Shown here: one piece after another, positions 4,850 through 46,402 of the stretch
Layout: the number at the start of each line of letters is the position of its first letter
Position numbering within the stretch: the stretch's first letter is position 1
Assembly (NCBI RefSeq): GCF_002154695.1
Contig: NZ_MTAV01000244.1
Span: forward strand, 862 to 59,885
Length of the DNA stretch: 59,024 bases
Origin: Nostoc sp. T09
GTDB lineage: Bacteria > Cyanobacteriota > Cyanobacteriia > Cyanobacteriales > Nostocaceae
Reading direction: 5' to 3'
Made by a program: the position numbers and the translations under genes
Notes under the pieces: model-generated
What the model was told of the DNA's origin: nothing
Databases searched by the model: none
The model's input: only the letters and a program-made list of their open reading frames with translations

Positions 4850-6976
4850 TCAAAAAGTTTTGCGTTCCTCCAAATGTGCTAATATCTCTGGACGAGTTCG
4901 CCAAACAGGACGCAGTTGCTTGCGACTAAACAATGGCAGTTGGTCGGTAATGTGGGGCGAACCAGGTTGAGAAGCGTTACCGTAGCTGAGCAAAGCCATT
5001 GCTCTGACTGGCTGAGAAAACTCAATGGCCGCAACATAACTATCCCCAGCAACAGCTTGAAAGCGTTCATTGCTAGAAGGAGCAAAATTCAAGACGCGGA
5101 ATATTCCTTTATCCCCTTCACCACCATTGGCAAGTAAATCTAAGTTTCCGCTACGCACTCGAAAAACTTCACCCCAAGGAACATCTAGCTTTCCATAAGC
5201 TTTTTCGACTTTTGCCGCCGCTATTTGCAGCGCTTTTGCTGCACTTGCTGGATCTTTTAAACCATCGGGTGTAGTGCGTGGGGAGTTCTCATTCCAAGGA
5301 ATACTAAAAATTTGGCTGTCATCGATTTCTTGACACCAAAAGGCAAACAAGACCGCACCGCGACTATCAGCATCAGCATTGCGATCCCAAGCAGCCAAAA
5401 TATCAGCAGCACGACGAGTTAATTCATCCCCATATTTTTGAGCAGCGGGAATTAAGTCATCAAGGATGCGTTCTGCAAGTTCCATTTTCGTGGAATGTTT
5501 GTACTGAATCATTTCCGCAAAAGAAATTTTGGCATCTTCAGCTAGCATCCTTGCAGAACTTTGGGATCGGAAAGACATTTCTCCTCGTGGAGCCATATAA
5601 GCAGGGTAATCATCAGCTTTGATGACAGATGGAAAAGTAGTTGTCCAAGGTGGGTCATTGGCATTTTGCAACCAACCGCTAGGCGGGTCAATCACACGCG
5701 GTAAATCCTGGTATGGGTGCATTTTTGTCCACAAAGTTTTGGATGTGTCACCAGGAATTAAGCTTTGCCAATATTGAAAGTCTCCTTGTTGACGAATCGG
5801 CACTAGACCGTTGAATAGGTGCATGATGTGCCCTTCTCGGTCTGCATACATGACGGTAAACATTGGCAGTTGCAAGCGTTGCAACACCTTTTGAAATTGG
5901 CTGAAGTTTTGCGAACGAGCCATATCCCACCATTGTTGCAACACACCAGGACGGTCTGCACCAACAACCCGCAGCGCCACAGCGACTCCATTTTTTTCTT
6001 GAACTACTGCACCGTGTACGGAACTTTTGATTACTAATGGTTGTTCAACTAACGAGCCATTTTTTTGTTTGACGTTTAACAACAACTTTTCTGTTGTAAA
6101 AGGAAGGACTTTACCATCCAAAACATAACCACCATCAGCTAACTTCAACTGATAAATATCCCAACCATCATGAGTATTGACGGTATGAGTCCAACCCAAA
6201 TGATCGTTAAAGGCGATCGCTAAAACTGGAATTCCTACTAAGGTTGCTCCATAAGCATTTATCCTTGGAGCCGTAACTTGTGCTTCGTACCAGGTAAATA
6301 AATCCGACCATAACAAGTGGGGGTTTGCTAGCAACATCGCTTTACCACTAGCAGAATGTTTGGGTGCGATCGCCCAACCATTAGAACCTGCTTTCGGTTG
6401 ACTTTGAGTAGCATCTGCTACCTGTCCTGGATTGACGATAAACGTAAAATACAACACTCTTTGCAAGTGCGCCAACACATCCTCAGGCTTGACAGGTAAT
6501 ACTATTTTTACTTCATCATCAATCAAATCAGGATGTGCTTTGGCATAAGTATTTATCCCAGTAGCAAAGGCATCTATATAACTACGAAAATCTGGATTTT
6601 GTGCCTGATACCAAGAATTAGCCCGATTGGGCACTCCCATCGTCAGTACCCATTTATCAGATTCTAAATACTCTTCTCCCCAATATTCGGCGGCTTTTCC
6701 CCTAGCTTGACCATAAAGACGCAACAGCAAGTTAGCGTGACTTTGCATCTGTGCCCAACCAAAGGACTGGAAAGCGCCTTGAGGATCTTTACCGTATATA
6801 TGCGGTATGCCGTAGGTATCCCATAATATTTCTGTAGTTATAGGTGCAGCCGCAAAACTGTTATTTGCCAAAACTACAACCAAAATGGCACTGAGGATAA
6901 AAGCTAAAAATCTCGATGATTTTCTTTTTAGTGTTTGCAGGTCAATTGGCCACAAATACATCCTAATATTTAACAT
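4850..6976 (-). CDS. Secreted penicillin-acylase-family Ntn hydrolase (PvdQ / AHL-acylase-like)
   Basis: Ntn hydrolase that splits amide-linked acyl chains. The frame is open to 7081, but ATG 6976 places a basic region and hydrophobic core (RFLAFILSAILVVVLANNSFA) at the N-terminus as a signal peptide, so I chose it. The beta chain should begin at Ser198 in KAGSNGWAIAP, the autocatalytic nucleophile of the family; the alpha-chain motif ITTEILWDTYGIPHIYG starts near residue 46. About 708 residues, normal for AHL acylases. Relatives include PvdQ, which removes the fatty acid from pyoverdine precursors in the periplasm, and AiiC, an AHL acylase of Nostoc/Anabaena. It lies downstream of the exporter, PepSY and receptor genes on the same strand, opposite an acyl-peptide siderophore NRPS. 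A deacylation or remodelling role is inferred; signal quenching is the alternative. Confidence 0.85.
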   Translation of the reverse strand: MLNIRMYLWPIDLQTLKRKSSRFLAFILSAILVVVLANNSFAAAPITTEILWDTYGIPHIYGKDPQGAFQSFGWAQMQSHANLLLRLYGQARGKAAEYWGEEYLESDKWVLTMGVPNRANSWYQAQNPDFRSYIDAFATGINTYAKAHPDLIDDEVKIVLPVKPEDVLAHLQRVLYFTFIVNPGQVADATQSQPKAGSNGWAIAPKHSASGKAMLLANPHLLWSDLFTWYEAQVTAPRINAYGATLVGIPVLAIAFNDHLGWTHTVNTHDGWDIYQLKLADGGYVLDGKVLPFTTEKLLLNVKQKNGSLVEQPLVIKSSVHGAVVQEKNGVAVALRVVGADRPGVLQQWWDMARSQNFSQFQKVLQRLQLPMFTVMYADREGHIMHLFNGLVPIRQQGDFQYWQSLIPGDTSKTLWTKMHPYQDLPRVIDPPSGWLQNANDPPWTTTFPSVIKADDYPAYMAPRGEMSFRSQSSARMLAEDAKISFAEMIQYKHSTKMELAERILDDLIPAAQKYGDELTRRAADILAAWDRNADADSRGAVLFAFWCQEIDDSQIFSIPWNENSPRTTPDGLKDPASAAKALQIAAAKVEKAYGKLDVPWGEVFRVRSGNLDLLANGGEGDKGIFRVLNFAPSSNERFQAVAGDSYVAAIEFSQPVRAMALLSYGNASQPGSPHITDQLPLFSRKQLRPVWRTRPEILAHLEERKTF

Positions 6977-7093
6977 GATCAATTGGGGATTGGGAGACAG
7001 AGGGGCATTAAGCTTAGTAACCTTGAAAAACTCCGGAAAGTGACAGAAGAGGGGTATTATATTACTGCACAAATCAACCATTATTTTTATGAT

Positions 7094-8389
7094 TCAAGTA
7101 ACATTATCATGGTCAGGTAAGATAGTTTCTATTTCACGTAGTATACGAATTGCATAGCCGCTTATACCTACTAGCAACAAGCTTAGTGAAGATATTACAT
7201 ACATGAGTGCCATACCTGCACCCTTTTCAGTGCCAAATATACTGCCAAACAAGGGTGCAAAATGACCCCCTGGCATCATAGCAGGCTCGAAAACATAATC
7301 TGCGAGCGCTCCCCCAACTAAGTTAGCTACTGCCGACGTAAGTAAAAGCATCATTGCCTGGGTAGCAAAAACACGTCCTTGCAATTGCGGTTGCACTTTA
7401 GCTAACCAGATAGCATCACTGTAACTACCAAGCAAGGGATAATTAAAGGATGAGCATAATTGGGCAGGAATCCAAATAACAGGTGTACGCCCCAGACCAA
7501 GTATGATTCTGCCCAATGCGGTACCTACCATACCGAATAGTACCCCCTTAATCCGACTTTTGTAGCTACCCCATATATTAATTAGCAAAACACCCAACAC
7601 ACCTCCAACTCCAACTGCTGCAAATAAACTACCTAAAACACTAACATCATTACCAGAGCGTTCTAGAATCATAGGTTTGTAAATAGAATCGCCGATATCA
7701 TGGATAAACCAAAATATTGCAGTCAATATTAGTAAAGCCAGCAAACTAGGACGCGAGATGATATATTTAAAACCAAAACTAATATCCTGGATAATATGTG
7801 TAGGCTCTTTTTCATTTGATTGTGCGATCGCTGGTTGTGGAATATGTATTCTTAAAACTGTGGCGATCGCAAATAAAAAAGAAGCAATATCAATACTCAA
7901 AATACCACCAAGTCCAACTACTCCGTAAAGGACACCAGCTAGTGCAGGGGCAATAATCATTGCACCATTACCAGCCAAGAAACTTAAGCTACTAGCCCTG
8001 GTGTATTGATGTTTGGGTAGCATTGTAGATATTGATGCAGAGTAGGCAAGTTCTTGGAATTGTTCAAAAGTGCGTTTGACAGCAAAAGCTATATACAGAT
8101 GCCATAATTGCAGATTATTAGATAAATAAAGTAATAAAACAGTAAAAGTCACTATACCGCCTACTGTATCCCCGGCTATCATCAGAAACTTGCGGTTAAT
8201 TCTATCTACAGCTACACCAGCGATAGGACTAATCAAAATTTGTGGTATTTGTGCAAAGAAATGAAACAAAGCTAATGCTGTCGCTTGATGTGTTAGTTCC
8301 CACACCCATATAGAAAAAGCAAAGGCAGTCATACTACTGCCAATTAGAGAAATCATCTGACCAACGCAGATGATCATAAATTTATACAT
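7094..8389 (-). CDS. MFS exporter, EntS-like
   Basis: 431 residues, hydrophobic throughout, about 12 membrane helices. It starts MYKFMIICVGQMISLIGSSM at ATG 8389 and has the loop 2-3 signature GVAVDRINRK typical of the MFS_3 / enterobactin-exporter (EntS) and macrolide-efflux group. Members export siderophores or drugs by proton antiport. It sits between a PepSY protein and a secreted acylase, in the gene set facing the NRPS operon, so export of the acyl-peptide siderophore across the inner membrane is the most likely job. The gene begins ~147 bp past the PepSY stop. Drug efflux cannot be excluded from sequence alone. Confidence 0.85.
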   Translation of the reverse strand: MYKFMIICVGQMISLIGSSMTAFAFSIWVWELTHQATALALFHFFAQIPQILISPIAGVAVDRINRKFLMIAGDTVGGIVTFTVLLLYLSNNLQLWHLYIAFAVKRTFEQFQELAYSASISTMLPKHQYTRASSLSFLAGNGAMIIAPALAGVLYGVVGLGGILSIDIASFLFAIATVLRIHIPQPAIAQSNEKEPTHIIQDISFGFKYIISRPSLLALLILTAIFWFIHDIGDSIYKPMILERSGNDVSVLGSLFAAVGVGGVLGVLLINIWGSYKSRIKGVLFGMVGTALGRIILGLGRTPVIWIPAQLCSSFNYPLLGSYSDAIWLAKVQPQLQGRVFATQAMMLLLTSAVANLVGGALADYVFEPAMMPGGHFAPLFGSIFGTEKGAGMALMYVISSLSLLLVGISGYAIRILREIETILPDHDNVT

Positions 8390-8536: not shown

Positions 8537-9673
8537 CTAGTTTAAATCTGAATCAGGCATCATATCTTTTTGTCTAATTTTACGATAACGATACCAATAC
8601 ATAACAAAACCAGTAATACAAAGGATAGTAGGAGCAAGACCAACAAAAATGTAGAGAATACGACTTGAAATGCCCCAAAATATTCCATAGTGTAAATGCT
8701 CAAAAGCACCAAGTACACTTTCTCCCAATGGTAGCTTCCGACTATCAACTACACGCAATACTTCGCTGCTATATTGATCCAAATAAACTCCACTTTCGCC
8801 AGCACTTAGAGCTTCTTGAGGTAGACGTTTATGGACATAAACTGCGTCTTCAGGTTTGTCGGGAATTGTTATCGAGATTGATGTTGCATCAGGAATAACT
8901 TTCTGAGAAATTTCCATTAGCTGAGATAGCTTTAAAGGTGCTTGATTAGGAATAGGCTTGGAAGCCACTGCTGGTGGTTGGGGAGTAAAAGTAAGCGTGT
9001 AAATAATAGGATATGACCAATCAGAAAAATTCCAGCAGAAACCCGTAAAAGCAGTGAAGGCAAGAAAGATTGCGGTCACCATTCCTGCCACTTTATGAAT
9101 ATCAAAGTTGATTCGTTTGGGATGGGCATTCCACTTAATTTTAAATCCAGCGATTAGCTTACGCCAACCAGGCCATAATATTAATCCTGTGACGCACAGA
9201 ATGAACAACAATAGCCCTGTGATGCCAACAATAATTTCGCCATTTCTACCTAGTAAAAGACCATAGTGGATTCTGAGAGCAACCCTTTCAAAACTATAAT
9301 CAGCTTCATTCCAACCCATTACTGCACCAGTGTAGGGATGAATTAATATCTGAATTAATAAATTGTTTGCATCAAAAAGTTCAACTTCGTAAGGTAAAGA
9401 AGGAGTAGCAGGCAAGTTGATACCGTATAATTTGAGATCGGGACGATTAGCGATCGCAGATTTGCCTGTTTCTAGAACTGCATCAATAGAAACCATTTGT
9501 TCTTGGGGAACTATAGTCCCAATCTGCTGAATAATTAGAGACTGTCCGATCTCAGTCTTAAAAACCAAAAGGCTACCTGTTAAACAGACAAGAGCTATTA
9601 ATAGTCCTACTCCTAAACCAATATAGCGATGCAGTATGAAGGCTGTATCACGTAATTTGTGCGATTTCATCAT
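8537..9673 (-). CDS. PepSY-associated membrane protein (iron-uptake type)
   Basis: 378 residues with four or so membrane helices: one near residues 14-36 (YIGLGVGLLIALVCLTGSLLV), a central pair around 143-168 and 195-215, and one at the C-terminus (GLAPTILCITGFVMYWYR). Conserved His residues lie in FILHRYIG and in HYGLLLGR / HLHYGIFWG, as in PepSY_TM proteins such as the FoxB/PiuB type, thought to reduce siderophore iron at the inner membrane. ATG 9673 is followed by a second ATG; AGAGG lies 6 bp upstream. It stands directly downstream of the TonB receptor on the same strand, the common arrangement for this family. A ferric-siderophore reductase role is inferred. Confidence 0.85.
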   Translation of the reverse strand: MMKSHKLRDTAFILHRYIGLGVGLLIALVCLTGSLLVFKTEIGQSLIIQQIGTIVPQEQMVSIDAVLETGKSAIANRPDLKLYGINLPATPSLPYEVELFDANNLLIQILIHPYTGAVMGWNEADYSFERVALRIHYGLLLGRNGEIIVGITGLLLFILCVTGLILWPGWRKLIAGFKIKWNAHPKRINFDIHKVAGMVTAIFLAFTAFTGFCWNFSDWSYPIIYTLTFTPQPPAVASKPIPNQAPLKLSQLMEISQKVIPDATSISITIPDKPEDAVYVHKRLPQEALSAGESGVYLDQYSSEVLRVVDSRKLPLGESVLGAFEHLHYGIFWGISSRILYIFVGLAPTILCITGFVMYWYRYRKIRQKDMMPDSDLN

Positions 9674-9974: not shown

Positions 9975-12900
9975 TCAAAATTCAAAAGAAACAGTCCCTA
10001 GGATAGTAAGCGGCGCACCTGGAGTGACAAAAAAACTTTGAGACTCAAAATATTTAGTATCGAAGAGATTCTTGATATTCACAGCAGCTCGCCAATTATT
10101 TTGCCGATAAAAAATACTGGCATCGGTTCTTACATAAGAAGGGATTTTGATAGTATTTGGGAGAGTCGCTTCTCTTTCATCAACATAGACAAGTCCGAGT
10201 CCCAATCCTAAACCTTGCAAATTCCCCTGCTGAAACTCATAGGTTGTCCATAAACTAGCGCTGTTGTATGGCACAGATTGTAACCTGTTATTAACTAATG
10301 CTTCATTATTGTCTTCGCTAACAAAAGCATCGGTATAAGCATAAGTAGCAATAATTTTCCATCCTGGTAAAATTTCACCTGTGATATCTAATTCCACACC
10401 ACGGCTTTTTTGTTCACCAGTCTGAACACTGAAGTTAAAATCTTCTGGGTCAGTAGTTAGCACATTATTTTTGCTGATGTCGAAATATGCTAAAGTCGCT
10501 GAGAGCCGATTGTTAAAGAATTCCTGTTTGATGCCAACCTCAAATTGTTCTCCAGTTTCTGGCTTAAACGCCTCACCTGTACGGCTGCGTCCAAAAATTT
10601 GAGGGTTAAAATAATTTGTCCAACTTGCATAGAGTGAAGTTGAGCTAGTGGGTTGATAAACAATACCGACTCGTGGCGAAAAGTTTGAATCTGAGACGTC
10701 ATTAAGCGACGTATTAGTTACTGGGTCTCTGTTGAAAGAATCTACCCAATCAAAGCGACCACCAGCTAATAACTTTAAATTAGGTGTTAGTTCTACAAGA
10801 TTCTGGAAATATAGTGCTATATTTCTCCCACCATATTCACCAGCAAAAAAGGGTTCAAAAGTTCCTGGTTGAGCGCCATATACCGGATTAAAGATATCTA
10901 TTCCAGCAATGGGAGCGGTGAAAAATTCGTAAGCAAATCTGTAGTTTGCTAATTCTACACCGAACAAAATATTATGCCGAATAGAACCTGTATTAAACTT
11001 ACCGCTAATTTCGGTTTGCAGAGAAATGTTTTCTTGCTCTTCATCCGATCTTTCTGCTGTTCGTGGAAGTGTTCGACCGTCTTCTAACAAAAAAGGCTCA
11101 GAGTAATTAGCAGGGGGTGCTGATAGAGTACTTCCATTGGTACTGATGACATTAAAACCTTGTCGCAACTTCCAGTCATTATTAAATTCGTGCTCTAATT
11201 TGAAAGTAAATGAGTTGGTCTTAAAATCAGCATCATTTAAGCCAGGTTCTCCTAGAAAACGGCTGATGGGGAGATCAAAAAATTCCCTTCCAGGTGGAAA
11301 CCCTCTTTCAAATGTGTAGTCAAACTTTTGATATTCGTACTCAAATGTCATATTGGTTCGTGGGCCAATATTCACGGAGACTACTGGAGATATAAAGAAG
11401 CTTTCGTTTTCCACAAAATCACGGAAGCTCCCAGAGTTTTCGTAGGCGACATTTAGCCGATACAGTACTGATTTATCGTCTGTTAAAGGCCCAGTCAAAT
11501 CAATTGTTGGGCGATAAAAGTCATAACTTCCAATTGCCATACCTACCCTGTAAAAAGGGTCTGCTAGAGGCCTCTTTGTTATTGTATTGACGACACCACC
11601 AGGATTACTAGAACTTCCATAAAGTACTGATGCCGGGCCTTTAAGAAACTCAACTCGCTCAATATTAGCGACATCACGAGGACTAAGAAAGCCAAAATCT
11701 TTAAAACCGTTGCGGAGAGAGTCAAAACCTGTACCAAAGCCACGAATAAAGTAACCTTGAGAAGACACTCCGCCATAACCTGATTGCTGTTGTACGCCAC
11801 TGACGTTATTAGCTAACTCATTCAAACGTACTACTTGACGGTCTTCTATAACTTCTTTTGGTATCACTTGAACAGATGCGGGAATATCTCGTAGCGGCGC
11901 ATCTATTTTTGTTGCAGTGGATGACTCTTGTACGCGATATCCGTCTCGCTCACCTGTGACTGTTAACTCAATTGGCTCGTCAGAGGTGGTTGGCTGTTCT
12001 GGCTGGGTTGGTTCTGTTGGTGTTTGGGGTTGCGCGTCTGCTTGGGTAGAAGATGCAACTGAAGCTACACCAAAAATCAAACCTTGGTCACTATCAAATA
12101 GCTCTATTTTCGGAATACTGTCTACTCCTGTTACAGCGACTCTGATAGTATTGGCATCAGAGTTAGTCACTGAGACTTCACTAACTCCAGCAATGGGTTT
12201 CTCTTGGCGGAATGTATTGCCACTGGGTAAGCGCAGTTGAGCCGAGGTAATGTCGACGATATATGTGTTGCCTTCACTCTTTGGCAACACTTGTAATTTT
12301 TCGCCATCTGGAGTGGCCAAAATGATCTCTAAACCATTATTGGTAGAATTAAGTTGGACTCCTGTAACTTCTGCGACAGTTTGAGATGTTGATTCGGTTT
12401 GTGTTGGCTGCTGTGGTTGAGATGCAGAGATAATCGGTGTCACTGCAAAAATCAAACCTTCATCACCATCAAATAACTCTGTGTTGGGTAAACCTCCCTC
12501 ACCTATGACAGTTACTCTGAGAGTATTGGTGTTAGCTTGAGTAACGCTGACAGATACAATGCCTGGTGCCGGATTATTTTGGGTAAAGTTACCACCATTG
12601 GGCAGTGCTAACACTGCATTGGGTATATCTGCTATGAAACTGTTGCCTTGATTATTATTGACTGGTTTGAGTGCTTCTGCATTGGCACTTTCTAAAATAA
12701 CTTCGATGCCTTTATCTGTAGAATTTACTTTTACACCCGTAACTTTAGTAACCAAACTATCACTGTTTTGCACAAGTAATTGTGCTGCACTGGTAGAGTG
12801 AGATTTCTGGCTCTCAATAGCAGATGGTTCGGCTGTCTGTGTTCCTGCATGAGCTGGTTGCAACAAGCTGCTAATTACCGCTAATGCTAATCCCACCGAA

Positions 12901-12992: not shown

Positions 12993-13047
12993 TTTGATAC
13001 TCATCCTCACACCAATTTAAAACGTCACGTCTGAACATTAATGACGC

Positions 13048-17086: not shown

Positions 17087-17668
17087 ATGAAGACCTTCTT
17101 AGAGACGGAGCGCTTAATTCTGCGCCAATTTACAGAAGAAGATGCTGATAACTTATTTGAATTAGACAGCGATCCTGAAGTAGTCCGTTTTACAACGAAT
17201 GCAGGTCAGCCTACTAATTACAAAGTTATTAAAACTCAAATTCTGCCATCATATTTTTCATACTATGAAAAATATAATAGTTACGGATGCTGGGCAGTGA
17301 TTGAAAAGTCTACTCAAGCATTCATCGGCTGGTTTCTATTTAGACCTATAATACACGCATCTTACTTCAATCCGAAATTAGCGAATTCTAGTGATATTGA
17401 GCTAGGATATCGATTGCGAAAAGATGCTTGGGGAAAAGGTTATGCAACGGAGGTATCTAAAGCACTTATTACTAAAGGTTTCTCCGAGTTAGGAACGCAG
17501 CGTGTTTTAGCTGTTGCTTTAGCGGCTAATTCGGCTTCTATTCGAGTAATGGAAAAAATAGGCTTAAAACTGTATACAAGATTGATTTCTGAGTACAATA
17601 ATCAAGATATTGTTATCTACGTTATCGATAAAGATTGCTTCAATATTGAAAAAAATATTGCTGCGTAG
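17087..17668 (+). CDS. GNAT N-acetyltransferase, RimJ/RimL type
   Basis: 193 residues. The opening FLETERLILRQFTEEDADNL and the acetyl-CoA loop RKDAWGKGYATE (about 111-122), followed by NSASIRVMEKIGLK, are the standard GNAT_3 signatures. It lies 60 bp after the starter gene and about 130 bp before the first hydroxylase, on the same strand, so it is probably co-transcribed. Possible roles are acylation of the Orn side chain or another amine of the product, or self-protection. No ornithine N-monooxygenase is present, so a hydroxamate is not indicated. It could also be an unrelated insertion: the flanking gaps are wider than elsewhere in the operon. Confidence 0.85.
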   Translation: MKTFLETERLILRQFTEEDADNLFELDSDPEVVRFTTNAGQPTNYKVIKTQILPSYFSYYEKYNSYGCWAVIEKSTQAFIGWFLFRPIIHASYFNPKLANSSDIELGYRLRKDAWGKGYATEVSKALITKGFSELGTQRVLAVALAANSASIRVMEKIGLKLYTRLISEYNNQDIVIYVIDKDCFNIEKNIAA

Positions 17669-37100: not shown

Positions 37101-38944
37101 TACGTAACTTTTTAAAAGCCAAATTGCCAGATTACATGATACCAAGTGCCTTTGTAGTGTTAGAAAAATTTCCTCTTACACCCAATGGCAAAATCGACCG
37201 TCGCGCCTTACCTGCACCTGACCCAATACAGCAGTCAGAAGAAAATACTTCCTCAAGTTTCACTCCAGTTCAAGAACTGCTTGTTGGTATTTGGGCTGAG
37301 ATTTTAGGTATCAAACAAGTAGGGATTCATGACAATTTCTTTGAATTAGGTGGTCACTCCCTCTTAGCTACTCGTGTTATTTCTCAAATTCGTAAAGCTT
37401 TCAAAGTAGACTTGCCCTTGCGTTGTTTATTTGAATCACCAACAGTAGCAGAATTAGCTAAAGAAATTGAGAAAACTATAACAGCAGATTTAAAAGTCAA
37501 TTTACCGAGTATTAGTCAAATTTCCAGAGTAGGCAATATTCCCCTTTCATACGCTCAACAACGGTTATGGTATCTCGACCAAGTGCAACCAAATAACTCT
37601 GCATATAACATCTGTAATGCTATGCGTATTATTGGTTCATTGGATATTCCTGCTTTAGAACAAAGCCTGAATGAAATTCTTCGTCGCCACGAAATTCTAC
37701 GCACTAATTTTATTTTAGAAAATGGGCAACCAATCCAAGTTATTGCCCCAGAGTTAAACTTAAAATTGCCTATTATAGACTTGAGCCAATTATTAGAGGC
37801 TGAAAGAGAGCAAACAGCCCAGAATTTAGTTAATCAAGAAGCAGAAAAGCCATTTAAATTACATATAGATACACTATTAATAGCTACACTTCTACGCCTA
37901 GGTGAAACAGAAAATGTGCTGCTTTTCACTATGCACCACATTATTTCTGATGGTTGGTCTATGGGAATATTAATTAAAGAATTAGTAGCTCTGTATGAAG
38001 CATTTTCTCTTGGTCAGGCATCCCCACTGCCAGAATTACTGATTCAATACGCCGATTTTGCCATTTGGCAACATCAATGGTTACAGGAAGAAGTTTTAGC
38101 AAAATTACTTACTTACTGGCAGCAACAACTCCAAAACTTACCAAATCTCAAATTACCGACAGATTATCCTCGACCTCTAACACCAACGTATCAAGGTTCA
38201 GCACAATCTTTTACACTCTCTCCCACATTATCTCAACAAATAAAAATCCTGAGTAATCAACAGGGTGTAACGCTTTTCATGACCTTGCACGCAGCTTTTG
38301 CAATCTTAATGCATTACTACAGCGAGCAAGATGACATTGTGATTGGTACAGATGTTGCTAACCGTAACCAAGGAGAAACTGAGGGCTTAGTTGGATTTTT
38401 TGTTAATCAACTAGTGTTACGGACAAAATTTGAGGGTAATCCCAGTTTTAGAGAATTGCTACAGAAGATTCGTACAGTTAACCTTGATGCTTACGCACAT
38501 CAAGATTTACCATTTGACAAACTTGTAGAGGCTATTAACCCAGAGCGTAATTTACAAACTACACCATTATTTCAAGTAAAATTAATTCTCCAAAATACTC
38601 CCACGACTGCTTTAGATATTTCGGGTATAACTTTCCAAAACTTGGAAATGCAAACCAAAACAGCCACCTTTGACTTACTCTTTGATATCAGAGATACAGA
38701 GCATGGACTGATGGGATTATTGAAATATAGCACAGACTTGTTTGAAGCTCAAACTGTAGCACGGATGCTCAAACAGTTTGAAATAATTTTGAGCCAGATT
38801 GTGAATGAGCCGAATGTCAGAATCAATGAAATTAAAGAAATATTAGCGCAAGCAGACAAAGAAGACAGACTTACTCAAGAGATGAATTATAAAAACTCTT
38901 TACAGCAAAAGTTGAGCAATATTAGACGTAAGTCTGTTAACTAA
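34154..38944 (+). CDS. NRPS: TubC docking-C-A(Ala/Gly)-T-C
   Basis: 1596 residues. Residues 1-55 form a TubC-type N-terminal docking domain (IEQFLSDLCSQDIKLWVENE, then LTPDIKAELAARKAEILAFI). C1 about 70-500 with HHIISDG. A about 520-1030, pocket D-L-F-N-N-A-L-T-Y-K, a code known for Ala and Gly in cyanobacterial NRPSs. T Ser1069 (LGGHS). C2 about 1110-1545 with HHIISDG. Tail about 1550-1596 ends KLSNIRRKSVN, matching the tails of the starter protein and the first NRPS. The C1 takes the chain from Gly on the upstream T; C2 hands it to the His-like terminal module. Start overlaps the previous stop by 4 bp, so the two are translationally coupled. Confidence 0.92.
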   Translation: MKTIEQFLSDLCSQDIKLWVENERLRCSAPKEALTPDIKAELAARKAEILAFISQANQALQSTSESIQPLSRQGNIPLSFAQQRLWFFTQLEPNSSAYNIPIAVRLTGKLNIAALSKSINEIIRRHEILRTTFTVVDGEPIQVIGKGEDFTFPVIDLQALSTEQKQQKVFNLAALEAQKPFDLVQDSLIRASLLQLSATDYVVLLTMHHIISDGWSTGIFIKEITTLYTAFSQGKLSPLPELPIQYADFAIWQRKWLQGEVLPTQLNYWKQQLGDNLPILELPTDRPRPALQSYNGATQPFQLSKSLTEKLKYLSQQEGATLFMTLLAAFKVLLHRYTQQEDVIVGTPIANRNRAEIEGLIGFFANTLVLRTNLANNPSFRELLQQVREVTLGAYAHQDLPFERLVEELQPGRNSSHNPLFQVMFVLQNTTTEPIQLLELTLEELRLEKNTAKFDLTLSLSETETGLWGDLEYNTDIFTADRITRMLGHFQVLLEGIIANPQQHLSELPLLTANEQHQLLVEWNNTEIDYPQDQCIHQLFEAQVEKTPDAVAVVLENEQLTYRELNERANQLAHYLQQLGVGPEVLVGICVEPSLEMVIGLLGILKAGGAYLPLDPNYPTQRLAFMLQDAQVKILLTQARLLEILPSHQAKVICIDKGWEIISKENQNNLKNQVSPTNNAYTLYTSGSTGKPKAVVIEHRNTIAFLNWAREVFTSQELTGVLASTSICFDLSVFELFFPLSWGGKVILIDNVLQLPSSLTAREVTLINTVPSAIAELLRIDGIPASVQTINLAGESLPQKLVQQLYQKTSAQNVFNLYGPSEDTTYSTFSLVKPEDGIVTIGRPIANTQTYILNSQLQPVPVGIPGELYIDSAGLARYYLNRPELTAEKFIPNPFSKKPGSRLYKTGDLVRYLIDGNIEFLGRIDHQVKIRGFRIELGEIEAAINQHPEVREAVVIVKEDRQDKKRLVAYVVSQSTHISVLELRNFLKAKLPDYMIPSAFVVLEKFPLTPNGKIDRRALPAPDPIQQSEENTSSSFTPVQELLVGIWAEILGIKQVGIHDNFFELGGHSLLATRVISQIRKAFKVDLPLRCLFESPTVAELAKEIEKTITADLKVNLPSISQISRVGNIPLSYAQQRLWYLDQVQPNNSAYNICNAMRIIGSLDIPALEQSLNEILRRHEILRTNFILENGQPIQVIAPELNLKLPIIDLSQLLEAEREQTAQNLVNQEAEKPFKLHIDTLLIATLLRLGETENVLLFTMHHIISDGWSMGILIKELVALYEAFSLGQASPLPELLIQYADFAIWQHQWLQEEVLAKLLTYWQQQLQNLPNLKLPTDYPRPLTPTYQGSAQSFTLSPTLSQQIKILSNQQGVTLFMTLHAAFAILMHYYSEQDDIVIGTDVANRNQGETEGLVGFFVNQLVLRTKFEGNPSFRELLQKIRTVNLDAYAHQDLPFDKLVEAINPERNLQTTPLFQVKLILQNTPTTALDISGITFQNLEMQTKTATFDLLFDIRDTEHGLMGLLKYSTDLFEAQTVARMLKQFEIILSQIVNEPNVRINEIKEILAQADKEDRLTQEMNYKNSLQQKLSNIRRKSVN

Positions 38945-39019
38945 AGTATTTTTGGTAATTTACAGCATTTGACTGAACGATTACTAGACGTTAGTACATA
39001 TAAATCAAGAGGTATGGAT

Positions 39020-42000
39020 ATGCAAACAGCAATTATAGAAGGATTTCGCCTTTCACCACAGCAAGAGCATTTATGGTCGCTACAACAACTTGATCAGAAA
39101 TCGGTATATCGCAGTGATTGTATCATTTCAATTACAGGCTATCTTGATGTAAACCGCTTGGAATTAGCTTTACAAGATGTTGTTAATCGTCATGAAATAC
39201 TCCGCACCCGTTTTCGTTGTCTTCCAGGGATGACTATCCCAGTTCAGGAAATTACAAATAGCAAAGTAACTCTATCTCAAACATACAATCTGAGTGCTTT
39301 CACTGTGGCAGAGCAAGATAGTAAAATAAAGGCAATTATTCAAGAGTTGAGATTGCTAACTTTTGATTTAGAAAATGGTTTAAACTTACAGAGTGCTTTG
39401 ATTAATCTCTCGTTAGAGAAGCACATTTTATATCTCAGGTTACCTGCAATTTGTGGTGATAGTTTTACTCTCCATAATTTAATGAGAGAAATTGTCAGTG
39501 CTTACTCAAGCAATCTGGACAGTGAATTATCTCAAGAACCCCTACAATACGCTGATTTCTCTGAATGGCAGAACCAAATTTTAGAATCAGAAGAAACTGA
39601 GATTGGCAGGAAATATTGGTTAAAGCAAAACTTATCTGTTGTTGATACTTTAAATCTGCCTTACGAAATTGATAAAGATCAGCAGCAGTTTGAACCCAAG
39701 GCTATCAACTCACTCATTAGTGGTGATTTGCTGCAAAAAATAGAAATTATAGCAAAAAAATATCATACTTCTAATTCTATATTTTTTCTTGCTTGTTGGC
39801 AGGTTTTACTGTGGCGGTTGCTTGAGAAATCAGAAATTATCATTGGTGTAGGTATAGATGGTAGAAAATACGATGAATTAAAAAATGCCTTAGGTTTGTT
39901 TGCTAAATATCTACCGTTATATTCTCATTTAGAACAAAATTTAAGTTTTAACCAAGCTTTAAAACAAGTACATGAATCTATAGAAGAAATCAATAAATGG
40001 CAAGAATGCTTTAGCTGGGAGCAAATTAATAATTCTGCTGCAAAATTATCTAATTTACCGTTTGGGTTTGATTTTGAACAGGAATCTACTGTTTGTTATG
40101 CAGGTGATGTAAAATTTTCTATTGAGCAGCAGTACACTTGCATTGAACGTTTTAAAATAAAGCTTACTTGTAAAAAGCTATCTGAGGCTTTAAACATAGA
40201 GTTTAATTATGACTCTAATTTATTTAATGCCGACAGTATTGAACTTATAGCAGAGAGTTTTACTACGTTAGTAACCAGTGTTATTAATAATCCAGAGGAG
40301 CTAATTAGTAAGCTCAATATTTTAAGCGATCGCACTCTGAACCAACTGCTATTTGAATTCAAACAAACTGAGGCTAATTACCCGAAAAATAAGTGCATTC
40401 ATCAGTTATTTGCAGAACAAGTAGAACGCACCCCAGATAATATTGCGGTTGCATTTAACAGTCAACAACTTACATATACTGAACTGAATACCCGTGCAAA
40501 TCAACTAGCTAATTACTTGCAACGCTTGGGGGTAAGTGCAGAAGTATTAGTAGGAATTTGTGTGGAACGTTCCTTAGAAATGCTCGTTGGTATCTTAGGT
40601 ATTATCAAAGCTGGTGGTGCTTATGTTCCCCTCGATCCGCACTATCCCCAAGAGCGTTTAGCTTTCATGCTAGAAGATACCCAGGTATCTGTATTATTGG
40701 CTCAGCAGCATTTACTGGAAGGTTTACCTAACCACAATGCACAGACAATTTGCTTAGATACAGATTGGGAAACCATAGCACAAGAGAGTCAAGACAACCC
40801 CCTGCTTACAGCATCTCCTGAAAACTTAGCTTATGTAATCTATACTTCTGGTTCTACAGGTAAACCTAAAGGAGTTGCGATCGCACATCGTAACTTAGTT
40901 CATTCCACAACTGCACGCCTCTCTTACTATCAACAACCTATCACCAGCTTTTTATTACTTTCATCCTTTGCATTTGATAGTTCAGTTGCGGGTATTTTCT
41001 GGACATTGTGTTGCGGCGGAACTCTACACTTACCAAAAGAAGGTGTGCAACGGGAAGTACCTAAATTAGTAGAGTTAATTTCACAAAATCGTATTTCCCA
41101 TTTATTAAGCCTTCCTTCTCTATATGCTCTCATTTTGCAACAAGCAAAACCAGAACAGTTAAATTCCCTATGTGCTGTCATAGTTGCAGGGGAAGCTTGT
41201 TCACTAGAATTAGTAGAAAATCACTCTCGGTTACAGCCACAAACCTCACTATTTAATGAGTACGGGCCGACGGAAGCAACAGTTTGGAGCAGTGTATACA
41301 ATTGCCATTCTCCAGGAAATGGAACGCAAATATCCATTGGTCGCCCCATAGCCAATATACAAATATATATACTAGACTCTCACTTACATCCGGTTCCTGT
41401 TGGCGTTACTGGAGAAATTTATATTAGCGGTGAAGGTTTAGCCAGAGGCTATTTAAATCAGCCTGCAATTACATCAGAGAAATTCATTCCTCACCTCTTT
41501 AGCGAAAAAGCAGGAATGCGTCTGTATAAAACTGGGGATTTAGCGCGATATCTCAATGATGGCAATATTGAGTTTTTAGGACGCATTGACAACCAAGTAA
41601 AAATTCGCGGTTTTCGGATTGAATTAGGTGAGATTGAAACTGTCCTTAAACAACATCCCCAGGTGCAGGAAACAGTAGTTATTACGCGTGAAGATGTACC
41701 AGGAAACAAACGCTTAGTTGCTTATTTAGTTCCTCAGTCAAAATCAGCCACTACAATTAATGAACTACGTAACTGGCTAAAAGATAAACTACCAGACTTT
41801 ATGCTTCCATCTGCTATAGTGCTTTTGAAAGAATTGCCTCTCAGCCCCAATGGTAAAGTTGATAGAAAAGCACTACCTGCACCAGAGGAAGTTAGAGCAG
41901 ATTTAATCGGAGAATTTGTTCCTCCTCGCACCCCTGTAGAAAAAAAGCTCACTCAAATTTGGGCAGAAGTCTTAAAAGTTGATAAAGTTGGCATTTACGA

Positions 42001-43357
42001 CAAATTCTTTGAATTGGGTGGGCATTCTTTATTAACAACTCAGCTACTTGCCAAAGTTAAAGAAGCTTTTAACTTGGATATATCTTTACGCAGTTTGTTA
42101 GAAAAACCCACTGTAGCAGGTTTAGCAGAAAATATTGATCAAGTTTGTCAAACAGAAGTTCAGTATTCAACCTTGGATCTTAAATCTGAAACCGCTTTAG
42201 ACCAGGCAATTTATCCTCCTACTGTTGGGAAGTTTATCCCTGCACCCAAGGCAGCTTTACTAACTGGGGCAACAGGCTTTTTAGGAGCATTTTTACTAGC
42301 TGAACTTCTGCAACAAACCACAGCAGATATTTATTACTTAGTGCGTTCTGTAAATTTTGAAGATAACCATACAAAAATACAGACTATCCTCGAATCTTAT
42401 GGGATTTGGAACGAACATTGGAGTTCTAGAATTATTCTCATTGTTGGTGATTTATCAAAACCACTTTTAGGTTTAGCAACTGAAAAATTTCAACAATTAG
42501 CATCTACGATTGATGTCATCTACCATAATGGTGCTTGGGTACATCATATTTATCCTTACTCAATCCTAAAATCTGCAAACGTACTGGGCACACGAGAAAT
42601 CCTGAGATTAGCTAGTCAAGTTAAAACCAAACCAGTACATTTTATTTCTAGCTCTGGTGTTGTATCCTCAAAAGTTGAATCTGGAGTTAAATTAGTTCGT
42701 GAACAGGATAGCCTGAATGAAAACGAATTTCCTAGCAACGGATATTGTCAAACTAAATGGGTAGCTGAAAAATTAGTACAAACGGCGGCTGAAAGAGGAA
42801 TTCCTATCTCTATTTATAGACCATCTCGCATAGCTGGACATAGCCAAACTGGTGTTTTTAATAGCAATGACTTTCTGTACAAATTGATTATCGGTTGTGT
42901 GCAATTAGGAAGCGCGCCAGATATAGACATTAGAGATAACATAGTTCCTGTAGATTATGTCAGCAAAGCCATAGTTCATTTATCCAAGCAGGAAGAATCT
43001 ATTGGTAAAACCTTCCACTTGGTACATCCCCAAACTCTGCACACAAATGCACTGATTGACCATATTCGCTCGTTGGGTTATGCAATTGAGCAAGTTTCTT
43101 ATGATCGGTGGCGGGAGAAATTACTCAATATTACTCAATGTTCATTAGAGCATCCTTTATATCCATTAGTGCCATTTTTCCCAGCAAGAGAAGCTCAAAA
43201 AGAAAAATCTAGTTCAGGATTTTTACAGCTTGATAATCAAAACGTTATCAACGGCTTAAGAAATACTTCTATTAATTGTCCTCCAATAGACGAGCAGTTA
43301 CTAAGCACTTACTTTTCTTATCTAATGAAGCAAGGATTAATGAACACTAAATTTTGA
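39020..43357 (+). CDS. Terminal NRPS: interface-A(His-like)-T-thioester reductase
   Basis: 1445 residues from ATG 39020, chosen over the longer frame (38969) because AAGAGG lies 7 bp upstream and MQTAIIEGFRLSPQQEHLW aligns with the other interface starts. Interface about 1-445 with PAICGDS (142-148) replacing HHxxxDG. A about 460-965, pocket D-S-A-L-I-A-E-V-W-K, identical to the first module of the 2122-residue NRPS. T Ser1003. Reductase domain about 1060-1445: NAD(P)H loop TGATGFLG (1082-1089), catalytic YCQTK (Tyr1242, Lys1246). It releases the chain as an aldehyde or, after a second reduction, an alcohol. No hydroxylase gene precedes it. The aminotransferase ~470 bp downstream could turn the aldehyde into an amine. 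Confidence 0.92.
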   Translation: MQTAIIEGFRLSPQQEHLWSLQQLDQKSVYRSDCIISITGYLDVNRLELALQDVVNRHEILRTRFRCLPGMTIPVQEITNSKVTLSQTYNLSAFTVAEQDSKIKAIIQELRLLTFDLENGLNLQSALINLSLEKHILYLRLPAICGDSFTLHNLMREIVSAYSSNLDSELSQEPLQYADFSEWQNQILESEETEIGRKYWLKQNLSVVDTLNLPYEIDKDQQQFEPKAINSLISGDLLQKIEIIAKKYHTSNSIFFLACWQVLLWRLLEKSEIIIGVGIDGRKYDELKNALGLFAKYLPLYSHLEQNLSFNQALKQVHESIEEINKWQECFSWEQINNSAAKLSNLPFGFDFEQESTVCYAGDVKFSIEQQYTCIERFKIKLTCKKLSEALNIEFNYDSNLFNADSIELIAESFTTLVTSVINNPEELISKLNILSDRTLNQLLFEFKQTEANYPKNKCIHQLFAEQVERTPDNIAVAFNSQQLTYTELNTRANQLANYLQRLGVSAEVLVGICVERSLEMLVGILGIIKAGGAYVPLDPHYPQERLAFMLEDTQVSVLLAQQHLLEGLPNHNAQTICLDTDWETIAQESQDNPLLTASPENLAYVIYTSGSTGKPKGVAIAHRNLVHSTTARLSYYQQPITSFLLLSSFAFDSSVAGIFWTLCCGGTLHLPKEGVQREVPKLVELISQNRISHLLSLPSLYALILQQAKPEQLNSLCAVIVAGEACSLELVENHSRLQPQTSLFNEYGPTEATVWSSVYNCHSPGNGTQISIGRPIANIQIYILDSHLHPVPVGVTGEIYISGEGLARGYLNQPAITSEKFIPHLFSEKAGMRLYKTGDLARYLNDGNIEFLGRIDNQVKIRGFRIELGEIETVLKQHPQVQETVVITREDVPGNKRLVAYLVPQSKSATTINELRNWLKDKLPDFMLPSAIVLLKELPLSPNGKVDRKALPAPEEVRADLIGEFVPPRTPVEKKLTQIWAEVLKVDKVGIYDKFFELGGHSLLTTQLLAKVKEAFNLDISLRSLLEKPTVAGLAENIDQVCQTEVQYSTLDLKSETALDQAIYPPTVGKFIPAPKAALLTGATGFLGAFLLAELLQQTTADIYYLVRSVNFEDNHTKIQTILESYGIWNEHWSSRIILIVGDLSKPLLGLATEKFQQLASTIDVIYHNGAWVHHIYPYSILKSANVLGTREILRLASQVKTKPVHFISSSGVVSSKVESGVKLVREQDSLNENEFPSNGYCQTKWVAEKLVQTAAERGIPISIYRPSRIAGHSQTGVFNSNDFLYKLIIGCVQLGSAPDIDIRDNIVPVDYVSKAIVHLSKQEESIGKTFHLVHPQTLHTNALIDHIRSLGYAIEQVSYDRWREKLLNITQCSLEHPLYPLVPFFPAREAQKEKSSSGFLQLDNQNVINGLRNTSINCPPIDEQLLSTYFSYLMKQGLMNTKF

Positions 43358-43830: not shown

Positions 43831-45288
43831 ATGAATGCACAACAAGTTACATTACCTCAACATTATGATTATCTAACCAAGCTATTAGCTACAACATGGC
43901 TTACTAACCAGCAACAAAATTATTTGAGAGATTTTATCAATCTCTATAGCGATCGCACAAAAACATCAAAGCAAATTTCTCAAAACTCTCGTCCATTTTT
44001 AGCTGATGATAAAAACTTAGGAGATTTTAATTTACTCTTCAAAGAAATGTATTATCCCATTGTGGCTAATCGTTCTTGCGGTTCTAAAATATGGGATGTA
44101 GACGGGAATGAATATGTAGATGTAATGATGGGTTTAGGTATTAATCTTTTTGGTCATAACCCATCTTTTATTAAAGAAGCTTTAATCACTCAATTGGATA
44201 AAGGTATTCAAATTGGCCCCCAATCAGAACTTGTTGGTGAGGTAGCTGAGTTAGTTTACCAACTCACTGGAATGGAGAGAGTTTGTTTTAGCAATACAGG
44301 TACAGAAGCCGTCATGTCTGCCATCCGCATTGCTAGAGCAGTTACAGGACGTGAAAAAATCGTTATCTTTTCGGGTTCTTATCATGGTCATTTTGATGGC
44401 ACTTTAATTAAAGCAAATAAGGCAGAGAATAATTACTCTGCAATACCATTAGCACCTGGAGTATTACCAAACTTTGTTAATGATGTTTTGGTGCTAGATT
44501 ATGGCAATCCTAAGTCTTTAGAAATCATCAAAACTCATCAGCAAGAATTAGCAGCCATTTTGGTAGTTCCTGTACAAACCAGTAGACCAGCTTTACAACC
44601 AAAAGATTTCTTGCACCAACTACGAGAATTAACACAAGCAACTGATATTACTTTAATCTTTGATGAAATGGTTACTGGCTTTCGCATTCATCCTGGCGGC
44701 GCACAAGCATATTTTGGTGTACAAGCTGATATTGCTACCTATGGAAAAATCGTTGGCGGTGGAATACCAATTGGGGTGATTGCTGGTAAAAGTAAATATA
44801 TGGATGCAATTGACGGGGGTATGTGGAATTATGGCGATGATTCCTACCCTAAAACACAAAAAACATTTTTTGCAGGTACTTTTTGTAAGCATCCCTTAGC
44901 GATGGCTGCTGCAAAAGCTGTCCTGAAATATCTGCAAAGTGAAGGACCATTACTACATCAAAAATTGAATGAACGTACAACAGAATTTATCACTGCTTTA
45001 AATAATTATTTTGTAGTAGAAGGGCTACCCCTACGGATGGCGAACTTTGGTTCACTTTTTGGTTCTGCATCCTTAGAACTTTCGGAGGAAAATTCTTCTG
45101 CTGCTTCCGTAGCTATGAGCTTATTAAAATATCATCTGCTTGATCAGGGAGTTCACCTTTTAGGTGTTAGTGGCTATTTATCTACAGCCCATACAGATGA
45201 AGATATTAACTACATTATTCAAGCTGTTAAGAATAGTGTAGAACAACTAAGGTCTGGAGGATTTTTACCTCCCCGTGCTTCTGTTTGA
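43831..45288 (+). CDS. Class-III PLP aminotransferase, glutamate-1-semialdehyde-aminomutase-like
   Basis: 485 residues. Visible motifs: WDVDGNEYVDVMMGLGINLFGH, the cofactor phosphate region FSNTGTEAV, SGSYHGHFDG, LIFDEMVTGFR (Asp to the pyridine nitrogen), and the Schiff-base Lys in YGKIVGGGIPIG. The extra ~50 residues at the N-terminus match stand-alone or NRPS/PKS-embedded members (McyE, MycA kind). It follows a reductase-terminated NRPS and precedes MbtH. In myxochelin biosynthesis the related MxcL aminates the aldehyde released by a reductase domain, so reductive amination of the peptide aldehyde is the best-supported role. AGG lies ~8 bp before ATG 43831. It could otherwise supply an unusual amino acid. 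Confidence 0.88.
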   Translation: MNAQQVTLPQHYDYLTKLLATTWLTNQQQNYLRDFINLYSDRTKTSKQISQNSRPFLADDKNLGDFNLLFKEMYYPIVANRSCGSKIWDVDGNEYVDVMMGLGINLFGHNPSFIKEALITQLDKGIQIGPQSELVGEVAELVYQLTGMERVCFSNTGTEAVMSAIRIARAVTGREKIVIFSGSYHGHFDGTLIKANKAENNYSAIPLAPGVLPNFVNDVLVLDYGNPKSLEIIKTHQQELAAILVVPVQTSRPALQPKDFLHQLRELTQATDITLIFDEMVTGFRIHPGGAQAYFGVQADIATYGKIVGGGIPIGVIAGKSKYMDAIDGGMWNYGDDSYPKTQKTFFAGTFCKHPLAMAAAKAVLKYLQSEGPLLHQKLNERTTEFITALNNYFVVEGLPLRMANFGSLFGSASLELSEENSSAASVAMSLLKYHLLDQGVHLLGVSGYLSTAHTDEDINYIIQAVKNSVEQLRSGGFLPPRASV

Positions 45289-45316
45289 AATTTTAGTTTA
45301 CTAATAGGAGATAAAA

Positions 45317-45541: not shown

Positions 45542-45634
45542 TACGTAAATTAGCCTGATATGTGCTATTTGTAGAGAGGTTCCTTCTCTACAATAATTTT
45601 ATTTGTGAAAACTAAAGAGCAAATTTAACTTGTG

Positions 45635-46402
45635 ATGAAGACAAAGATATCAAATCTCAACTCTTGGATAATTTCTCCTAAGCCTAATCCACAAGCAGAT
45701 TTGCGTTTATTTTGCTTTCCTTATGCGGGTGGTAGTTCTTTGATCTTTCGCTCTTGGCCAGACTCATTACCGACATCTGTAGAAGTTTGTACAGTCGAAC
45801 TTCCAGGTCGGGGGAGGCAAATGAAGTTACAGCCATATAATAAAATAGAACCGCTTGTAGATGCGATCGCCTCCGTTATCCACCCATATTTAGATATACC
45901 ATTTGCTTTCTTTGGTCATAGCATGGGTGGCTTGGTAAGCTTTGAATTAGCGCGTCTACTCCGCAAAAAGTACGGGACTCTCCCAGTTCATCTGTTTATA
46001 TCTGGTCGCCGCGCCCCGCAAATCCCTGATTTAGAGCCACCAATTCACAATCTCCCCGAACTTGCTTTTATCGAAGAACTGCGCCAACTCAAAGGTACAC
46101 CACCAGCAGTATTGGAAAATGCAGAATTGATGCAGCTATTTCTGCCGATTTTACGGGCTGACTTTGCAGTTCTAGAAACTTATATTTATACTTCTGAACC
46201 ACCTTTAGAGTGTCCCATTACTGTTTTTGGCGGATTACAAGATTCAGAAGTTGGTTGTGACGAACTGCAAGCATGGCAAGAACAGACAAAGGCTGATTTT
46301 AATTTACATATGTTTCCAGGCGATCACTTTTTTCTGCATTCTTCCCAATCTATTTTACTCGAAAAATTGGTTAAATATTTGCCACACAATTTACTAACAT
46401 AA
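45635..46402 (+). CDS. Type II thioesterase
   Basis: 255 residues, alpha/beta hydrolase of the GrsT kind. Nucleophile Ser96 is in FFGHSMGGL; the acid lies near GGLQDSEV and the His in PGDHFFLH. RLFCFPYAGGSSLIFRSW and ELPGRGRQ are family marks. Such enzymes clear misloaded or stalled carrier domains and do not release the product, which here is done by the reductase domain. ATG 45635 is preferred to GTG 45632. It is the last intact gene of the cluster, 93 bp after mbtH. Confidence 0.93.
   Translation: MKTKISNLNSWIISPKPNPQADLRLFCFPYAGGSSLIFRSWPDSLPTSVEVCTVELPGRGRQMKLQPYNKIEPLVDAIASVIHPYLDIPFAFFGHSMGGLVSFELARLLRKKYGTLPVHLFISGRRAPQIPDLEPPIHNLPELAFIEELRQLKGTPPAVLENAELMQLFLPILRADFAVLETYIYTSEPPLECPITVFGGLQDSEVGCDELQAWQEQTKADFNLHMFPGDHFFLHSSQSILLEKLVKYLPHNLLT

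Follow-up and report, generated by a model that had tools for sequence, protein, structure and literature searches.

A putative acyl-hexapeptide siderophore locus in Nostoc sp. T09 with one aspartate-type and two histidine-type interface modules

The locus and its assembly line

Here we describe a nonribosomal peptide synthetase (NRPS) gene cluster of the cyanobacterium Nostoc sp. T09 that probably makes, exports and re-imports one acyl-hexapeptide siderophore, in which three beta-hydroxy residues would provide six donors. The cluster lies on contig NZ_MTAV01000244.1 (59885 bases, in a genome of 8.25 Mb); the window is the whole stretch that was analysed, bases 862-59885 of this contig (59024 bases), and coordinates below are those of the window. 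An earlier reading made from the letters of the DNA—hereafter the sequence-only reading—claimed a complete locus at 4850..46402. All the genes that it named are open frames where it placed them, and the gene cluster is complete, as claimed, because its borders fall well within the contig at both ends.

The assembly line is intact and runs FAAL-ACP-C / I-A-T-C-A-T-C / I-A-T-C-A-T / C-A-T-C / I-A-T-R, where FAAL is a fatty acyl-AMP ligase, ACP an acyl carrier protein, and C, I, A, T and R are condensation, interface, adenylation, carrier and reductase domains. On the plus strand the FAAL-ACP-C protein is followed by a GNAT protein, a hydroxylase and four NRPS proteins, the first two of which flank a second hydroxylase; an aminotransferase and a type II thioesterase complete the row. 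Intergenic gaps are at most 127 bp from the FAAL gene to the last NRPS gene, then 473 and 343 bp. The biosynthetic features are:

13530..17027, plus strand: FAAL-ACP-C starter protein (domain annotation)
17796..18842, plus strand: Fe(II)/2-oxoglutarate hydroxylase, Asp type, with HSE...H (PF02668; tree; motif)
18864..26714, plus strand: NRPS I-A[Asp]-T-C-A[Orn-like]-T-C (domain annotation, pockets)
18873..20223, plus strand: interface domain 1, Asp clade, without HHxxxD (domain search, tree)
26746..27771, plus strand: Fe(II)/2-oxoglutarate hydroxylase, His type, with HNE...H, the sole His-type hydroxylase of the cluster (PF02668; tree)
27789..34157, plus strand: NRPS I-A[His]-T-C-A[Gly]-T (domain annotation, pockets)
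27801..29157, plus strand: interface domain 2, His clade (domain search, tree)
34154..38944, plus strand: NRPS TubC docking domain-C-A[Ala]-T-C (PF18563; domain annotation, pockets)
38969..43357, plus strand: NRPS I-A[His]-T-R, its thioester reductase with TGATGFLG and YCQTK (TIGR01746, 353 bits, above cut-off)
39032..40357, plus strand: interface domain 3, His clade (domain search, tree)
43831..45288, plus strand: stand-alone class III aminotransferase, GKIVGGG with the pyridoxal phosphate lysine, candidate reductive transaminase (MycA aminotransferase domain, 505 bits)
45632..46402, plus strand: type II thioesterase (PF00975, 186 bits)

The six adenylation pockets, read with a reader built on the window's own adenylation domains, are DLTKVGHVGK, DVGEICSIDK, DSALIAEVWK, DILQLGLIWK, DLFNNALTYK and DSALIAEVWK; a second alignment method changes one letter of pocket 2 (DVGEIGSIDK), where the residue is C by eye. 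By their specificity codes, we take pockets 2, 4 and 5 to be Orn-like, Gly and Ala. DLTKVGHVGK is assigned to Asp/Asn, and DSALIAEVWK is given as a His signature that also accepts the beta-hydroxy form, in the accessible part of PMC12283262. These pockets support the predicted order Asp, Orn-like, His, Gly, Ala, His; the sequence-only reading had proposed the same order, and its His-like call for the DSALIAEVWK modules matches the published signature.

Interface modules and related clusters

Interface domains are confined to the Asp module (1) and the two His modules (3 and 6), as the sequence-only reading had it. Each is a C-like domain that lacks HHxxxD(G), stands immediately before an A domain and is preceded by a normal C domain; a search with interface domain 3 gives 398 and 426 bits for the other two, and 91-142 bits for the six C domains. 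Two Fe(II)/2-oxoglutarate hydroxylases with HxE...H, the potential partner enzymes, are encoded in the cluster.

To place these modules we surveyed 39 related loci, which with the window make 40 rows after duplicates (a short NIES-3755 piece and G197) were dropped; G and L numbers are our handles for genomes and loci. Relatives were picked by hydroxylase likeness and are no random sample, and their stretches reach about 78 kb, some of them cut. Final cluster counts cover both strands, with G401 counted by eye (its FAAL match is split) and split I matches in G216 merged. HHxxxD is present in 228 of 235 C domains across the 40 loci, against 1 of 93 I domains. A hydroxylase scoring above 500 bits to the window's His enzyme occurs in 29 of 217 family genomes, its own included, and 19 of the 29 were annotated; a search for the His hydroxylase in 369 genomes of the class of G581 (Pseudoalteromonas) found 7 genomes at E <= 1e-75.

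The trees separate the two types. All 21 hydroxylases that precede an I-A[His] unit form one clade (support 0.986), which includes the window's 26746 enzyme, and 22 of 24 His I domains likewise form one clade (0.982) with both window copies, the exceptions being Methylocystis and G216. Interface domain 1 belongs to an Asp clade of eight (0.986), and the 17796 hydroxylase falls outside the His clade, among stand-alone enzymes of the Asp type and of the SSRD type (named for a pocket described below). It is most likely, on this comparison, that the ligands are one beta-OH-Asp and two beta-OH-His. Pathways to beta-OH-His are described as rare (<2% of detected regions), and two cyanobacterial clades are named for Asp hydroxylases and none for His, in the part of PMC12971057 available.

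Outside the cyanobacteria, a hydroxylase with an I domain and a His-like module was seen in L115 (a metagenome-assembled genome, MAG, labelled Phycisphaerae), L116 (a MAG labelled KSB1) and L033 (a Methylocystis plasmid), with pockets DSVLIAEVWK, DSALISEVWK and DSALIAEVWK and the same basic tail motif as described below. The Methylocystis plasmid hydroxylase groups with the cyanobacterial His clade. These copies reflect either transfer or mis-binned contigs.

The number of I modules follows the start of the assembly line. In 15 clusters, the window included, FAAL-C leads directly to a hydroxylase and an I module, and 14 of these have exactly three I modules, which supports the prediction of three bidentate ligands per molecule. 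Sixteen other clusters have a residue or a ketosynthase (KS) ahead of the first I module. Two I modules are usual in this group (12 clusters), a single one occurs in three (Methylocystis, cut; T. variabilis, frame-broken; G212), and G329 has three. Where the FAAL lies outside the stretch, two I modules are visible (9/9). By analogy with cyanochelin B, it fits these counts that a cap would supply one bidentate ligand where just two I modules exist. Taken with the cyanochelin B control described below, this three-module rule lends indirect support to the predicted hexadentate ligand for Fe(III).

A His I module is present in 21 clusters, and two such modules in only three: the window, G405 (same genus) and G389. 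All three clusters have three I modules, one hydroxylase in the Asp-type position and a single one of His type, none before the last I module, and an R domain with an aminotransferase; they differ in their spacer residues, and in G389 the first pocket, SSRDVAMGIK, is unusual. This pocket or one near it occurs in the first adenylation domain of G401, G534, G389, G400, G216, G529 and G411. Such pockets contain an Arg and have no Asp at the usual amine-binding site; perhaps the domain activates a side-chain carboxylate (iso-linked Asp), a guess from iso-Glu/iso-Asp pockets. The Asp-Asp-His clusters (G116, G390, G408, G514, G522, G420) share the FAAL-C start and three I modules with the window, and their last I module is I-A[His]-T in all six; five of them have R and an aminotransferase, with no R in the G522 stretch. 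In contrast to the window, they have Asp in the second chelating position, preceded by a C-fused hydroxylase (in the split copy of G420, as a frame of its own).

G405 has the order Asp-Thr-like-His-x-x-His, and its comparison with the window divides the assembly line into conserved and variable parts. Likeness is 83% for A1, 84% for A3, 86% for A6, 90 and 91% for the hydroxylases, 83% for R and 88% for the aminotransferase, with the FAAL within the same 83-91% range and the I domains 69-76% alike; the best partners of the spacer domains A2, A4 and A5 reach only 55-57%. The carrier and the following C domain are 84 and 86% alike after A2 and 86 and 79% after A5, and T4 and C4 are low too (64 and 62%). 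Toward its end the assembly line has its nearer likeness in G470, which has two I modules and a KS (C4 87%, I3 80%, R 88%, aminotransferase 93%), and for this reason the window cluster looks like a mosaic. The comparison indicates that ligand modules are kept and spacers change, perhaps by exchange of adenylation domains between clusters; the family is a natural set in which ligand modules are constant and spacers varied, useful for NRPS design.

A shared basic motif, the predicted pathway and its alternatives

The single His-type hydroxylase raises the question of how module 6 is served: since this module has no hydroxylase of its own, one His enzyme would have to serve two modules. A possible handle is a basic tail, with a consensus of about Q-K-L-x-x-I-K-R-K-S-I, on NRPS proteins that end in a C domain ahead of an I protein. 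In the window it is found, along with its counterpart on the hydroxylases, at these positions:

16983..17024, plus strand: basic C-terminal tail motif QKLKFAKRKTINGI of the starter protein (tail motif search)
17823..17867, plus strand: N-terminal basic motif of the Asp hydroxylase, diverged, FNPIKAKRRQGVNLS (sub-threshold in the motif model)
26649..26711, plus strand: basic C-terminal tail motif ERKFMKVKRKSISG... of the first NRPS (tail motif search)
26746..26790, plus strand: N-terminal basic motif MQNLGNIKRKALSVS of the His hydroxylase (22.5 bits against the model of C tails only, threshold 12.1)
38906..38941, plus strand: basic C-terminal tail motif QKLSNIRRKSVN, preceding the I protein without an adjacent hydroxylase gene (tail motif search)

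A loose pattern finds the tail in 60 of 63 such NRPS proteins and in none of 9 other C-ending proteins; by eye, the motif is there in two of the three misses, the other being a frame break. A motif model was trained solely on C tails, with a 99% shuffle threshold of 12.1 bits (53/63 training tails pass). Among hydroxylase N-termini, those of 27 of 57 stand-alone and 19 of 31 fused enzymes score above this threshold. None of the 29 hydroxylases whose loci lack a clear I domain passed (L117-L119, L121-L147; L129 has a weak I domain), nor did any of 6 other tails, three tails of fewer than 13 residues having been left out. About half of the stand-alone hydroxylases fail the threshold, and the window's own Asp hydroxylase is a plain miss at 2.2 bits. 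By eye, the motif is also present in Methylocystis and in the MAGs labelled KSB1 and Phycisphaerae.

In our reading the motif serves docking to interface domains: its presence on both the upstream NRPS tail and the hydroxylase N-terminus would make the interface domain a socket for both. Two AlphaFold2 models of in-frame neighbours were too poor for docking to be judged. The hydroxylase with interface domain 1 reached a mean predicted local distance difference test score (pLDDT) of 58.7, with the motif at about 29-53 and the hydroxylase itself poorly folded; the last C domain and tail with interface domain 3 reached 55.5, with the motif at 37-45. A literature search, with the main interface-domain paper and most subscription papers beyond its reach, returned nothing on a motif shared by tails and hydroxylases. 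The motif gives a concrete, sequence-level entry point to the question of how an interface domain might locate its hydroxylase.

The remaining genes for the pathway are those for transport on the minus strand (TonB receptor, PepSY_TM, MFS and acylase), to which we add the GNAT gene of the plus strand:

4850..7081, minus strand: penicillin-amidase-family N-terminal-nucleophile acylase, candidate deacylase, signal-peptide-like N-terminus, Ser233 after Gly232 (PF01804, 449 bits)
7094..8389, minus strand: MFS exporter (PF07690; EntS-like match weak; 85% in G405; 12 bp from the acylase gene)
8537..9673, minus strand: PepSY_TM membrane protein, candidate ferric-siderophore reductase (PF03929, 206 bits; one solved PepSY protein, weak, 42 bits)
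9975..13010, minus strand: TonB-dependent siderophore receptor with AMIN domains (TIGR01783, 409 bits, above cut-off; PF11741)
17087..17668, plus strand: GNAT acetyltransferase (PF13302; also in G405, G116 and G420)

The receptor, PepSY_TM, MFS, reductase, class III aminotransferase and thioesterase were each verified by Pfam or NCBIfam models, and the receptor, exporter and PepSY genes of the sequence-only reading are thereby recovered. The GNAT gene sits between the starter and the Asp hydroxylase, and is not tied to Orn, because the GNAT-bearing clusters G405, G116 and G420 have differing second pockets. Elsewhere in the window, a 120-residue frame at 1894-2256 consists of near-repeats of LHRLVILMHRS and may be no gene but repeat DNA in translation. 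Scans of the window for Rfam families and tRNAs gave zero matches.

In the pathway that we propose, the FAAL would load a fatty acid on the ACP and the starter C domain would join it to Asp, after which the line would add Orn (or another basic residue akin to it), His, Gly, Ala and His. The I domains of the Asp module and both His modules would recruit the stand-alone Fe(II)/2-oxoglutarate hydroxylases, which would act on the residue while it is bound to the carrier: the 17796 enzyme on Asp and the 26746 enzyme on both His modules. The terminal reductase would then free an aldehyde, which the adjacent aminotransferase may convert to an amine, in the manner of MxcL in myxochelin B synthesis. 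Export by the MFS protein, possible periplasmic deacylation by the 4850 acylase and uptake through the TonB receptor would follow, and iron would be freed either through the PepSY protein or through the action of light on beta-OH-Asp. If this is right, the calculated composition of the unacylated terminal amine is C26H42N12O10, with [M+H]+ 683.322, and the C16-acyl form is expected at 921.552. Calculated in the same way, the C8-acyl amine would lie at 809.426 and the unacylated alcohol at 684.306, with a shift of +52.911 for the Fe(III) form; these exact masses make the prediction directly testable.

Several observations weigh against this pathway. Module 6 has no adjacent hydroxylase gene, nor does the third I module of G405, G389 or G329, and the clade of the 17796 enzyme and its nearest Asp-type relatives has a support of just 0.453, with SSRD-type enzymes intermixed. 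G411 has four I modules after its FAAL-C-hydroxylase-I start, and G329 has three despite a preceding residue. An aminotransferase is missing beside R in 5 of 26 R-ended clusters (G034, G048, NIES-3755, G277, G252), and the 60 kb of the G405 stretch contain no acylase or type II thioesterase; because of this, and because the window's acylase is nearer to cephalosporin acylases than to PvdQ, the step of acyl removal is weakly backed. There is no ABC importer gene among the window's proteins and no significant Fur box in the window. Finally, the surveyed relatives share kinship and a hydroxylase-based choice, so that counts among them are not independent. One candidate Fur box between the receptor and FAAL genes was rejected: its best site matches 14 of 19 positions, which was equalled in 11 of 200 shuffles, and it was not counted.

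The alternative that survives best concerns the acyl end, where the mature molecule would not be an acyl peptide at all, a periplasmic acylase having stripped the fatty acid. PvdQ removes the fatty acid from pyoverdine in this way. The acylase gene, on which the text of the sequence-only reading is silent although its span begins there, lies 12 bp from the exporter gene on the same strand, within the row of transport genes; an MFS-acylase pair adjoins on one strand in the distant G216, and 15 of the 40 loci, which are not all cut at the same points, have an acylase match. Against this, the G405 stretch has none, nor has the stretch of NIES-3755, whose product keeps its chain, and the best PDB match is a cephalosporin acylase (665 bits; PvdQ 211 bits), with 243 bits to the PvdQ NCBIfam equivalog where the cut-off is 950. 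We regard removal of the chain by this acylase as possible, and a mature product without it as a serious contender that is nevertheless less probable than an acylated one.

At the other end of the molecule, release by the reductase might yield an alcohol, with the aminotransferase acting elsewhere, for example on the acyl chain as in mycosubtilin. Among solved structures the aminotransferase is nearest to the aminotransferase domain of MycA (505 bits, against 203 bits for GSAM), relatives such as G408, G522 and G401 have similar domains built into larger proteins, and a 53% paralogue is found in a 1644-residue frame elsewhere in the genome. However, the window has no KS match and hence no route to a beta-keto acyl chain, and a stand-alone aminotransferase lies within 3 kb of R in 21 of the 26 R-ended clusters, so we think the alcohol unlikely. 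Where no R domain is found in the stretch (G401, G522, G529), the cluster end is a large protein with an aminotransferase domain, then a stand-alone aminotransferase. MxcL is placed in the MycA subfamily (available part of PMC3870968), and it transaminates the reductively released aldehyde in myxochelin synthesis (available part of PMC9611931). Since the reductase adjoins a stand-alone MycA/MxcL-type aminotransferase, a terminal amine is likelier than an aldehyde or alcohol, and the gene content suggests a product with a C-terminal amine. The reductive release of the sequence-only reading stands, with the TIGR01746 domain, but was incomplete in this respect.

Somewhat less probable still is that only the internal His (module 3) is hydroxylated, the I domain of module 6 being vestigial and its residue plain His, which would leave two bidentate groups and a loose imidazole/amine end. 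Such a product would explain the single His-type hydroxylase and its absence next to module 6, and Asp+Asp+His clusters such as G116, G390 and G514 do have one hydroxylase per I module. Yet the module 6 I domain is still in the His clade, the protein before it has the tail motif, and the pattern is the same in all three two-His clusters, because of which the lack of a hydroxylase at module 6 is not a recent loss. The third I module of G329, an I-A[Asp] unit without an adjacent hydroxylase, is the only Asp case akin to module 6. The earlier prediction of exactly three beta-hydroxylated residues fits the three I modules and a hydroxylase of each type, and is qualified by the one His-type enzyme with none by module 6.

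That the peptide serves another metal (Cu, Zn, Co) seems quite improbable: imidazole on two-thirds of the predicted ligands would suit such metals and the Fur box search was negative, but the receptor scores above the siderophore receptor family cut-off, a related cluster makes cyanochelin B, found in iron-starved cells, and the available part of PMC12628792 likens its own proposed ligand to the hydroxyimidazole of the siderophore corrugatin.

The acyl-hexapeptide siderophore thus remains the preferred product, and the sequence-only reading is likely right in the main—right in kind, with gaps where the C-terminus and the acyl end are concerned. The full picture is more tentative, and we rather doubt that every part of it will hold together: a siderophore with one beta-OH-Asp and two beta-OH-His and an amine end made by reductive transamination, one His hydroxylase serving two modules since the I proteins share a basic address motif, and spacers exchanged between clusters.

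Comparison with known siderophore systems

Cyanochelin B is the closest solved case. It consists of an acylated thiazoline, Phe, Gly, beta-OH-Asp, Ser, beta-OH-Asp and ethanolamine, and the metal-binding role of its cap is called unconfirmed (available part of PMC12628792). Annotated with the same models, the cyanochelin B plasmid of Leptolyngbya sp. NIES-3755 has I domains exactly in the two beta-OH-Asp modules, and its terminal R domain has no aminotransferase match in the joined stretch, the product ending in an alcohol; because this annotation fits the structure, one solved case bears out both rules, the one for I domains and the one for release. The window shares with this cyanobacterial cluster the FAAL start, I modules with hydroxylases at the beta-hydroxy residues, and a reductase end, which bears out the likeness to cyanochelins drawn in the sequence-only reading. 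The likeness fails in two places: the window has one Asp and two His I modules where cyanochelin B has two beta-OH-Asp, and in place of a polyketide synthase-built thiazoline cap, FAAL-ACP-C leads directly to the first I module with no KS match. The window also has an aminotransferase where cyanochelin B ends in ethanolamine.

The myxochelin system offers the parallel for release, its terminal module likewise ending in R with a stand-alone class III aminotransferase (MxcG/MxcL). Of the NCBIfam models, MxcG scores highest with the 38969 protein, at 758 bits, but far under the cut-off of 2300. The myxochelin NRPS is not known to have an I domain. Its product differs too, being built from catechol and lysine (available part of PMC9611931).

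Corrugatin, ornicorrugatin and histicorrugatin of Pseudomonas are, like the predicted product, acylated peptide siderophores (accessible text of PMC12904278), and corrugatin bears a hydroxyimidazole (accessible text of PMC12628792); the likeness, as described, lies in the acylated peptide and in the hydroxyimidazole. The sequence-only reading had thought the order with two beta-OH-His to be undescribed. Novelty must be narrowed in that the same-genus relative G405 also has the Asp-His-His chelating set, with different spacers. The product is most likely a new version of a known siderophore type, as predicted from the genes.

Cyanochelin B, with two beta-OH-Asp, frees Fe(II) under UV light (available part of PMC12628792). 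The siderophore predicted here, made by a phototroph, would have an iron site that is two-thirds hydroxy-imidazole, and with one beta-OH-Asp only it should behave differently from cyanochelin B, and so might alter who in the community gets iron.

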